This document shows positions 4,803-14,373 of a stretch of DNA of 16,444 nt, in pieces. The notes under the pieces were generated by a model. The model was not told the origin of the DNA, made no database searches, and saw only the letters and a list, made by a program, of their open reading frames with translations. The stretch comes from Candidatus Poribacteria bacterium. GTDB lineage: Bacteria; Abyssobacteria; SURF-5. Position 1 is the stretch's first letter, and each line of letters opens with the position of its first letter. The position numbers and the translations under genes were made by a program. The DNA is taken from positions 1 to 16,444 of the forward strand of contig JACRIR010000016.1 in the NCBI GenBank assembly GCA_016215705.1, written 5' to 3'.

Positions 4803-5433
4803 GCAAAGGGCAGAGACAAGAATTCATCTTCCCAATAGAGGGTCCGGATTGAATATTCGCATACGCCGGTCATCAGAGGAAATAGCACTTATTGTGCCGA
4901 TGAAGCGAAAAGCGGGGATTCGACGGGATTTTCCGTGATAAGTCTTTGGCTGATGGCATCTTACGTAGTGATGAATCTGCTGCCTTGAATGTATTCGTCA
5001 ATACCGATTTTGGCTCGTTTCCGAACACAACAAGCTCATTTTCTGCCTTTGGGCGAAAAGGAATACGGTGCAGAGCAGCATAGCCGCAACATAAACAATT
5101 GAGAGGGCGTTTGCAAGAAGAAAATGACAGGATCACTGCCGTCCAAAACAAGAAGCCTGAACCGCAGATGGCGCGGAGGGGCGCAGAGAAAAACGGCAGG
5201 AAGCCAATGTCCTCAGCGTCCTCAGCGTTGATGATTTGCGCAAGTTGCTTCGTCTTTGTTGTTCATCACAAATAGGTTTCCTGGTTTGTGCATGTCAATG
5301 TTACTCAGTAATAACGGGCTCTTTTGAGGATTCCTTTCTGTTATCTTGAACAAGAGTGCGACAGGATATTGAAATATTCAAAGCATCCATGATATGTTGG
5401 TTTTCGAGGGAAATGGGCAACCAGGAGGAGCAT
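4803..5433. other. Intergenic gap with repeat debris
   Basis: 630 bp between divergent genes without a convincing coding region. It holds one copy of the interspersed core GCAGCATAGCCGCA (5075-5088), and around 5159-5235 a degenerate stretch (CCGCAGATGGCGCGGAGG, then the duplicated CCTCAGCGT). A weak promoter candidate for the downstream plus-strand gene is TTGTGC with TAATAA after 17 nt, around 5286-5314. The 92-codon minus-strand frame in the gap has no family resemblance and spans the repeat core. Confidence 0.5.
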
Positions 5434-6438
5434 ATGAGTGAGATTGATCTTTATCGGGAAATGGCTGACAGAATCATGATGGGAAATTCTGACGACATAA
5501 AGCAAGCGCTCAGAATCGTTGCGGATGAAGGCGAGGCCAGGTTGCTGCTTGCGATGCCGGGCACGGCGGAGCAGTTGGCAGATTCGACTAATCGGCCCGT
5601 GGAAGAGGTAAGGAAGGCGCTGGACGGCTTGTTTCACAAAGGGTTGGCATTCGTTTCGGGAAGCTCCGGTAAGTATCGGATGTTCCGCGACGTAATTCAG
5701 CTTCACGACGCTACCGCTTTGTGGCCGGAAGCGCCAAAGGAGCTTCTTGAATTGTGGAAAAGATGGACTGAGGCAGAGTGGGCGTCGACTGCCAAGGTCT
5801 TCGAGGGATTCTTGTCGAATCCGCCTCAGAGGATCATCCCTGTCGAGATTGCGCTCGAGGACAAGCAGCAGATTCTGCATTATGAGAACGTGAGGGAGAT
5901 AATCGAGAACGCGAAAAAGATTGCCGTGACCAAGTGTCCGTGCCGGGTGGTTGACGGCAAATGCGGGCTGCCGGTCGAGGTATGCGTGCAGATAAACAGG
6001 GGGGCCGAATACGCGATAGCAAGGGGAACCGGCAGGGAGATCGATAAGGCGGAGGCGATGCAGATTATGCGTAAGGCGGAGGAGTCCGGCCTGGTGCACG
6101 TGACGATGAACACTGACCACACTGATCATTATATATGCAACTGTTGCCCCGACTGCTGTGTCGGGCTGCGGGCGGTCAGGTCAGCGGAAGGCGCGAAGTT
6201 TGTGGCGCCGTCGCGATATCAGGCGGCCGTTGATGAAGACGTCTGCATCGGCTGCGAATCGTGCCTGGAGCGTTGTTATTTTGGAGCGCTGAGTGCAAAA
6301 GGTGAAGGCGAGGACTGCAAAGCATTGGTGAATCCCGAGAGATGCGTCGGCTGCGGTCTTTGCGCCGTTGTGTGTCCGTCTAATGCCATAAAATTTGATG
6401 AGGCGCGCCCGGCCGATTTCATTCCCGCGTCGGGTTGA
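5434..6438 (+). CDS. Winged-helix protein with two [4Fe-4S] ferredoxin clusters
   Basis: 334 aa from the ATG at 5434, chosen because AGGAGG (5423-5428) sits 5 nt upstream; a longer frame from 5356 lacks such a site. The N-terminus (about 25-85) looks like a winged helix-turn-helix (GTAEQLADSTNRPVEEVRKA). A middle region has two Cys groups: C168, C170, C177, C184 (KCPCR...KCGLPVEVC) and C235, C237, C238, C241, C242 (ICNCCPDCC). The C-terminus carries two classical [4Fe-4S] motifs, C271-x2-C-x2-C-x3-C281 and C304-x2-C-x2-C-x3-C314, the latter followed by P. This matches, from memory, a family of 4Fe-4S proteins of about 350 aa with the same CNCC and CPC motifs found in many anaerobes; their function is not established. 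A redox-sensing or electron-transfer role is inference. It appears monocistronic, with a palindrome just downstream. Confidence 0.85.
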   Translation: MSEIDLYREMADRIMMGNSDDIKQALRIVADEGEARLLLAMPGTAEQLADSTNRPVEEVRKALDGLFHKGLAFVSGSSGKYRMFRDVIQLHDATALWPEAPKELLELWKRWTEAEWASTAKVFEGFLSNPPQRIIPVEIALEDKQQILHYENVREIIENAKKIAVTKCPCRVVDGKCGLPVEVCVQINRGAEYAIARGTGREIDKAEAMQIMRKAEESGLVHVTMNTDHTDHYICNCCPDCCVGLRAVRSAEGAKFVAPSRYQAAVDEDVCIGCESCLERCYFGALSAKGEGEDCKALVNPERCVGCGLCAVVCPSNAIKFDEARPADFIPASG

Positions 6439-6481: not shown

Positions 6482-6550
6482 CGTTTCAGCGGAAACCGGG
6501 GACACGATGTCGCATCGTGTCCCCGGTTTCCTGCGATGCGTCCTGAAACG
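6482..6550. repeat. Palindromic element copy 2, with an outer stem
   Basis: Perfect 19-nt arms GGAAACCGGGGACACGATG (6491-6509) and complement (6513-6531) around a TCG centre (6510-6512). The arms differ from copy 1 at two positions, and both changes are matched on the opposite arm. An outer 8-bp stem (CGTTTCAG at 6482-6489 with CTGAAACG at 6543-6550) extends this hairpin through an internal loop. It lies 3' of the Fe-S gene stop codon and 5' of the next gene. No T-run follows, so it is not a standard intrinsic terminator. Confidence 0.93.
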
Positions 6551-6646: not shown

Positions 6647-7975
6647 ATGAAGACGGCGCGCCTGCTCCTTTGCGTCATTGCTGCGACAGTTCTTATCCTC
6701 ATGCCGGACACGGCATTTTGTGGCGTCCGGCGCCCGAAGCCGGCTGCCTTGCTGACTCGTATAACGCTTGTTTCTCCGGTTGACGGCTCCACGCTGTATT
6801 CGCCGCCCACATTCAACTGGACCGCGGACGGGGATGGGAACATATTCGCCGTGGAACTCAGCGCGTCGCCCAATTTTCGGACATACTGGTCGACGTTCAA
6901 GAACCTGCAGGAGAAGATTTACGGGACAAGCTGGACTGTGCCGTCAGGATTATGGGGGCAGATAAACGCCGGCACGCGACTGTACTGGCGCGTGAGGGGG
7001 ATGGACATATACGAGAATCCCGGGGTGGTGATTACAAGCGGCCAGGTCTGGTCGGCTGTCATGCAGACTCCGAAGGGCCGGGATTATCGTGAGGACATGC
7101 GCCGGTTTGTAGAGGGAATCAGCGCATATGCGAAGGGAATCAGGCCCGGCTTCAATGTTATTCCGCAGAACGGGCACGAGTTGCTTACGGTGAATGGTGC
7201 GGCAACCGGGCCGGTGGCGCAGGCATACGTCGATGCAATTGACGGCGTTGGCCGCGAGGACCTTTTTTACGGATATTCGGCTGACAACATTCCGACGCCG
7301 CCGACAGAACGCAACTACATGATCGGGTTCATGAATGTGGCTGAGAACAACGGCGTTCAGGCGTTCGTCACTGATTACTGCCGGACCCCGGCATACGTCG
7401 ACGACTCGTACAACCAGAGCGGTTCGCGAGGATACACGTCATTTGCCGCGAGTCACAGAGAGCTCGACAACATTCCCACATATCCGGCCAGCCCGTTTCA
7501 CTTGAACTCGGCCAACGTAGTGTCGCTCGCGGACGCCAAGAATTTCCTCTACATTTTGAATCCGGGGGCGTTTCTTACCAAGCAGCTTTTCCTGAATGCG
7601 ATACACGACACAGACTACGACCTTTTTATTATCGACTTATTCTATAACGACATTGAGTTGACGCCCGCCGAAGTGGCCTCGTTGAAAACGAAAGCGCATG
7701 GCGGCTCACGGTTGGTTATCGCGTACATGAGTATCGGCGAAGCGGAGGACTACAGGTATTATTGGCAACCTTCGTGGGCAACGAATCCACCCTACTGGCT
7801 TGCAGGCGAGAATCCGGCCTGGCCCGGCAACTACAAGGTTCACTATTGGGACCCTGCGTGGCAGGCCATTATTTACGGTAACAACGACTCGTATCTGAAG
7901 AAGATTCTGGATGCGGGATTCGACGGCGTGTATCTGGATATTATTGATGCGTATGAGTATTTTGAAAGCCGTTGA
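6647..7975 (+). CDS. Secreted TM1410/GH114-like barrel protein, halves permuted
   Basis: 442 aa from the ATG at 6647, chosen because GGGAGG ends 9 nt upstream and the residues from there (MKTARLLLCVIAATVLILMP) form a signal peptide; the longer frame from 6395 would translate the palindrome. Residues about 40-140 resemble a fibronectin-III-like domain (SPVDGSTL, FNWTADG, YWRVRG). Residues 147-285 match the C-terminal half of TM1410/COG2342 (GH114-related) domains: FNVIPQNGHELL, IDGVGREDLFYG, then HRELDNIP. Residues 290-442 match the N-terminal half: FLYILNPG, YDLFIIDLFYNDIELT, IAYMSIGEAEDYR, WPGNYKVHYWDP, GFDGVYLDIIDAYEYF. In the normal order GFDGVYLD comes before PQN and EDLFY. Candidate catalytic residues by analogy are Asp431 and Glu204. 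The family is related to polygalactosaminidases and was once misannotated as cysteinyl-tRNA synthetase; the actual glycan is unknown. Confidence 0.85.
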   Translation: MKTARLLLCVIAATVLILMPDTAFCGVRRPKPAALLTRITLVSPVDGSTLYSPPTFNWTADGDGNIFAVELSASPNFRTYWSTFKNLQEKIYGTSWTVPSGLWGQINAGTRLYWRVRGMDIYENPGVVITSGQVWSAVMQTPKGRDYREDMRRFVEGISAYAKGIRPGFNVIPQNGHELLTVNGAATGPVAQAYVDAIDGVGREDLFYGYSADNIPTPPTERNYMIGFMNVAENNGVQAFVTDYCRTPAYVDDSYNQSGSRGYTSFAASHRELDNIPTYPASPFHLNSANVVSLADAKNFLYILNPGAFLTKQLFLNAIHDTDYDLFIIDLFYNDIELTPAEVASLKTKAHGGSRLVIAYMSIGEAEDYRYYWQPSWATNPPYWLAGENPAWPGNYKVHYWDPAWQAIIYGNNDSYLKKILDAGFDGVYLDIIDAYEYFESR

Positions 7976-14271: not shown

Positions 14272-14373
14272 AACGTCATTCTGAGCGAAGCGAAGAATCT
14301 CTATGCAATGCAAACGGGACACAATAACTCAGAAACCAATGACGAGATTCTTCGCTTCGCTCAGAATGACGTT
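14272..14373. repeat. 30-bp perfect inverted repeat between the DUF488 genes
   Basis: The arm 14272-14301 (starting AACGTCATTCTGAGCGAAGC) and the arm 14344-14373 are exact reverse complements, separated by 42 nt. The arm contains the tandem GCGAA-GCGAA. It has the form of a short MITE-like element or a strong hairpin in the 312-bp gap upstream of the 13704-14144 gene. The word CATTCTGAGCGAAGCGAAGAATC is, from memory, a common intergenic repeat in several bacterial groups. Confidence 0.9.

Follow-up and report, generated by a model that had tools for sequence, protein, structure and literature searches.

A circularly permuted GH191-type barrel protein encoded by a Candidatus Poribacteria bacterium, with relatives in many bacterial phyla

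The GH70 family is the textbook case of a circularly permuted TIM barrel, and to our knowledge natural permutations of TIM-barrel enzymes are few. The window analysed here, a stretch of 16,444 nucleotides from a Candidatus Poribacteria bacterium (contig JACRIR010000016.1), contains a gene for which a preliminary description proposed a further case, namely a barrel of the TM1410/GH114 type whose second half precedes the first. This raises the question of whether the gene encodes one barrel in permuted order, whether that order is private to this genome or inherited, and what the protein may do. We consider it highly probable that the product is a secreted GH191-type hydrolase whose permuted barrel goes back to a single, old and inherited event, with cleavage of a polysaccharide of the Pel/galactosaminogalactan type as its most likely activity.

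Swapped half-barrels in one intact gene

The gene and its parts are located in the window as follows:

6647..7975, + strand: CDS of the circularly permuted GH191-type protein, 442 aa (intact ATG frame; TIGR01370 matches; 80 collinear relatives)
6647..6721, + strand: signal peptide, residues ~1-25 (MKTARLLLCVIAATVLILMPDTAFC), read from the sequence
6746..7066, + strand: lineage-restricted module of ~107 aa, residues 34-140 (module matches across genomes)
7085..7495, + strand: C-terminal half of the canonical barrel, residues 147-283, α4-β5-β6-β7-β8 (TIGR01370 186-311; model strands)
7256..7258, + strand: Glu204, predicted general acid/base (TmGH191 Glu225), end of β6 (alignment to 9eux; invariant in 77 sequences)
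7472..7534, + strand: fusion segment, residues 276-296, old C-terminus joined to old N-terminus (rotated protein aligned with canonical members)
7535..7972, + strand: N-terminal half of the canonical barrel, residues 297-442, β1-β2-β3-β4 (TIGR01370 55-175; Foldseek to TM1410)
7820..7822, + strand: Trp392, equivalent of the lid Trp121 in TmGH191 (alignment; invariant in 77 sequences)
7937..7939, + strand: Asp431, predicted nucleophile (TmGH191 Asp156), end of β4 (alignment to 9eux; invariant in 77 sequences)

When the segment 147-285 was scanned alone against NCBIfam, its residues 148-275 matched positions 186-311 of the TIGR01370 profile (E=4.8e-9), and residues 314-439 of the C-terminal segment, scanned in the same way, matched positions 55-175 (E=8.1e-43). 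The separate searches that had been proposed to examine the swapped order thus returned complementary C- and N-terminal halves of the profile and not the same half twice. The order is also borne out by phmmer against solved structures, where residues 324-440 aligned with positions 28-139 of the TM1410 chain and residues 149-208 with positions 151-203, in reversed order. Pfam PF03537 matched only residues 324-437, corresponding to the N-terminal half of the profile (positions 17-119 of 231), and gave no full-length match. Over the whole protein, both parts of TIGR01370 are covered (together E=1.5e-52), and the score of 178.7 bits is just below the curated cut-off of 181.25 bits, probably due to the swapped order. 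As the half with Glu204 precedes the half with Asp431, departing from the linear order of canonical GH191, we regard the protein as a permuted variant and not as an ordinary member of the family. The profile E-values and the collinearity of all 80 relatives exclude chance. Of the limits given in the preliminary description, the start of the barrel at about residue 147 was retained, while the junction of the old ends was relocated from residues 285/290 to about 276-296.

Predicted fold, active site and N-terminal module

AlphaFold2, run on the barrel alone with an alignment of 77 permuted sequences, predicted one closed eight-stranded barrel (pLDDT 95.8, pTM 0.93), as had been anticipated from the two halves. 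The strands of this model follow the order β5-β6-β7-β8-β1-β2-β3-β4, those of the first half spanning residues 170-174, 200-204, 238-244 and 264-268, and extra strands after β3 form a β3 insertion. Together with the invariant Trp392, the predicted model has the modified (β/α)8 barrel with β3 insertion and lid tryptophan that characterises GH191, and alignment, conservation and the ends of the model strands place the catalytic Asp on β4 and the Glu on β6, as in that family. In GH191, Asp156 and Glu225 (9eux numbering) are the putative nucleophile and acid/base, respectively, and Trp121 of TmGH191 is a tryptophan in the active-site lid (PMC12054363). The counterparts of the two acids, Asp431 and Glu204, are invariant in the 77 relatives and are located where β4 and β6 end. 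The model thereby supports the view that both halves would close into one barrel and bring the two acids together as in canonical members. Along the chain of each of the six structurally characterised galactosaminidases, the Asp comes before the Glu (PMC12054363), whereas the window protein has the opposite order, with Asp431 located 11 residues ahead of its last residue.

Structure comparisons with this model gave GH191 structures as the best Foldseek matches, and TM1410 was covered over only 150 columns of its N-terminal half (2.0 Å, TM 0.41/0.43), because Foldseek keeps sequence order. A second structure aligner superposed almost the entire barrel onto unrelated TIM-barrel proteins (Z ~10-11.6, ~195-235 residues), and this combination of a half-only match to TM1410 with whole-barrel matches to TIM barrels is explained by one closed barrel in permuted order. 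TM1410 is absent among the best 50 VIA-align matches listed, which is uninformative on kinship since this alignment follows sequence order as well.

The canonical GH191 or MJ1477-TM1410 proteins (TIGR01370; 2aam, 9eux, 9euz, 9ep5) share the barrel fold, the catalytic Asp and Glu and the lid Trp with the window protein, to which their N-terminal half is 37% identical, and differ in the order of the half-barrels. The GH114 endo-α-1,4-galactosaminidases (PF03537, Ega3), which CAZy keeps separate from GH191, have the same fold in canonical order, and their profile recognises the N-terminal half only. The GH166 hydrolase domain of PelA and PelA-H of Bacillus cereus (PMC7112168) are placed in the same fold class and likely in the same pel-locus setting; PelA has the Asp-then-Glu order and is non-permuted (PMC12054363), and loss of pelA-H in B. 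cereus gives a hyper-biofilm phenotype. The closest precedent for a hydrolase barrel permuted in one branch beside non-permuted relatives is provided by the GH70 glucansucrases, which stand next to GH13 and GtfC-type relatives (PMC9732880). GH70 is, however, an unrelated family in which one motif has moved (II-III-IV-I), whereas in the window protein the barrel is divided equally, 4+4. In the literature searched, which included few subscription journals, no description of a permuted protein of the GH191, GH114 or TM1410 kind was found, and permutation is mentioned neither in the GH191 paper (PMC12054363) nor in the Gram-positive Pel paper.

The region between the signal peptide and the barrel had been described as a fibronectin-III-like domain. 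A domain is indeed present, but its assignment to fn3 found no significant match in Pfam, where only Big_7 appeared below threshold (E=0.005); profile searches against the PDB gave no match, and modelling yielded no confident fold. This module of ~110 aa (L198-L209, L215-L246) has 14, 26 and 6 matches in the three genomes of the window organism's family and is near absent in 57 others. In 37 of the 43 other copies it forms the C-terminus of the protein and ends at the stop codon, while the window protein carries it near the N-terminus, at the place of the lipid anchor of the relatives. The module probably serves as a surface or anchoring domain specific to the lineage, and its use at either end makes a binding or anchoring function more likely than a strict C-terminal sorting signal. 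The window signal peptide has TAFC and no canonical lipobox, whereas most stand-alone relatives match a permissive lipobox pattern at this place.

Relatives, phylogeny and origin of the permuted order

Scanning of GTDB genomes led to 213 confirmed relatives, and 80 loci were kept for analysis. Each of these aligns in a single HSP that spans the permuted barrel from end to end (52-68% identity). The typical relative has ~325 aa, starts just before α4 and ends at YLDIIDAFEYFE, with each half occurring once, in fixed order and with conserved length. A permissive lipobox pattern is found in 63 relatives, with a median distance of 14 residues from the Cys to the barrel. The hosts belong to Bacteroidota, Spirochaetota, Cloacimonadota, WOR-3, Hydrogenedentota, Chloroflexota, Myxococcota, Calditrichota and others, and include isolates. 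Across a spread of 290 genomes, the permuted form occurs in 11 (the window's own included) and canonical members above the cut-off in 10. Compared to canonical proteins, the permuted clade has a shorter β2-α2 loop and a longer β5-α5 loop lining the cleft. No conserved neighbourhood surrounds the 80 loci beyond close strains, and outside Bacteroidota and Fusobacteriota the permuted gene mostly stands alone.

The gene immediately upstream of the permuted one encodes a related 4Fe-4S protein in the window (5356-6438), in Cetobacterium (L196 6628-7914) and in a TA06 MAG (L029 302-847), an adjacency that may be coincidence, since it is absent beside other loci. The window also contains two copies of a 37-bp palindrome, GGGGACACGATG-N3-CATCGTGTCCCC (1154-1190 and 6493-6529), the latter between the upstream 4Fe-4S gene and the permuted gene; the genome holds 136 copies, and a reversed-pattern control gave 0. 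A perfect 30-bp inverted repeat (14272-14301 and 14344-14373, 42-bp spacer) between two DUF488 genes is possibly a small mobile element.

In the phylogenetic tree, all 40 permuted rows form one clade (support 100/99) beside canonical TM1410 proteins, and trees calculated from each half alone again recovered the permuted forms as one clade. The simplest reading is thus a single event in which both halves came from one parent. Permuted sequences, once rotated, align cleanly with canonical ones, which places the cut in the β4-α4 loop and shows the old ends to be joined via ~15-20 residues. The preliminary description had held that family members commonly having this order would speak against a permutation; many do have it, but they form one clade beside canonical members and the outgroup. 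The permutation is therefore real, old and monophyletic, and one that the window's organism most likely inherited, not an event in the window's genome. Two canonical-order proteins of one bacterial family (L160, L180) were recovered as sister to the permuted clade (98/82), yet a topology with canonical GH191 as a single clade next to the permuted one was not rejected in an AU test (p=0.276). Both have a 'YRQDM'-like α4 start and a long β4-α4 insert in common with the permuted clade, of which they are possibly the nearest non-permuted kin.

Three other accounts of the swapped order were considered. Judged by the Pfam and NCBIfam results alone, which look like two partial matches, the protein might consist of two independent, incomplete half-domains lying side by side. 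We regard this as extremely unlikely, as each half occurs once, in the same order and with conserved length in 80/80 relatives, and as the confident single-barrel prediction matches closed TIM barrels over its whole length; collinear relatives and one-barrel model together rule the two half-domains out. Because the window makes up one of the 270 contigs of a draft assembly, an assembly artefact or a recent private rearrangement might be suspected, but the probability of this is negligible and the explanation is refuted by relatives with the same order in independent isolate and MAG assemblies, e.g. of Chitinophaga, Flavobacterium, Fulvivirga and Cetobacterium. Finally, the permuted order could be ancestral and the TM1410 order derived, a polarity that is compatible with the AU result for canonical GH191 as a sister clade. 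Against this very improbable scenario, the GH114-type outgroup has the TM1410 order, and the order in all six structurally characterised galactosaminidases is Asp before Glu. The permuted order is thus most likely the derived one.

On the reading of a single inherited permutation, the old termini have been fused and the chain opened in the β4-α4 loop, so that β5-β8 come before β1-β4. This most likely took place once, in the ancestor of a clade whose members now occur in many bacterial phyla, with the window organism as an heir in which the usual short anchor has been exchanged for a signal peptide and the lineage-specific module. The proposed origin by tandem duplication and loss of the outer halves fits these data and is plausible, while the intermediates that such a path could leave (N-C-N-C, N-C-N or C-N-C) were found at none of the loci examined.

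Putative function and link to Pel genes

In the closed barrel, Asp431 at the end of β4 would act as nucleophile and Glu204 at the end of β6 as acid/base in a retaining, endo-acting enzyme, whose most likely target would be a galactosamine-rich polysaccharide with α-1,4 linkages, of the Pel/galactosaminogalactan type. Among characterised members of the family, Env-GH191 cleaves Pel, and TmGH191 gave no activity on galactosaminogalactan (PMC12054363). Several permuted genes are found next to Pel genes. In Cetobacterium, one operon combines the permuted gene with PelF, PelG, DUF2194 and the gene of a GAF-domain protein; in one genome (G162) the permuted gene lies directly upstream of PelF (DUF3492 + GT4), after which come genes for a canonical GH114 and a DUF2194 protein; and in another (G158) it adjoins PelF. 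Nine more sampled Bacteroidota genomes have the same Pel-like locus elsewhere in the genome than the permuted gene. This conserved Bacteroidota locus (L247 2251-13347; L248-L256) encodes PelF, a 535-aa protein, a canonical GH114, a 660-aa protein and a 1335-aa DUF2194 protein that likely ends in an outer-membrane part. Among 296 Bacteroidota genomes, PelF is present in 18 of the 20 with the permuted form versus 4 of the 276 without it (Fisher p 5e-23, a value that ignores shared ancestry in a phylogenetically clumped association). From this co-occurrence and adjacency, we infer that a galactosaminidase role is likely for the permuted proteins.

For the window protein itself, Pel as substrate is uncertain, since its genome contains no PelF and permuted genes in other phyla mostly stand alone; in the window's organism the enzyme may thus act on polymers of other organisms or on a different galactosamine-containing chain. 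No PelF was detected by tblastn near the 80 GTDB loci. More generally, the permuted barrel might serve another substrate than Pel/galactosaminogalactan or be a binding protein. The specificity of GH191 is poorly known, TmGH191 gave no activity on galactosaminogalactan, most permuted-gene genomes outside Flavobacteria and Fusobacteria lack PelF (present in 4/36 outside the window organism's family), and the shortened β2-α2 loop and the longer β5-α5 loop lining the cleft are specific to the clade. The invariance of the catalytic Asp, Glu and lid Trp, the pel-locus linkage in three genomes and the strong co-occurrence with PelF in Bacteroidota argue against this alternative, which we consider the less probable one, albeit with an appreciable chance of being correct.

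The permutation also moves the chain ends. The new N-terminus is at the catalytic rim (start of α4), compared to the barrel bottom (start of β1) in canonical members, and the two termini of the chain are located at the catalytic face. It is conceivable, though rather doubtful, that this altered the tethering of the enzyme, as a lipid anchor ~14 residues from the barrel would turn the active site towards the membrane. If true, a membrane-facing active site could suit the trimming of polysaccharide emerging at the cell surface, as in Pel loci.

The swapped order probably explains why curated profiles under-call the permuted branch: in genomes with the permuted gene, TIGR01370 gave split, swapped matches in 26 of 26 and a score above the curated cut-off in 0 of 26, and Pfam sees one half only. 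As an apparently single 4+4 permutation present in multiple phyla, the clade offers a broad natural test set for the evolution and folding of half-barrels. It also represents a set of candidate galactosaminidases, some of which are tied to Pel-type biofilm genes in Bacteroidota and Fusobacteriota.
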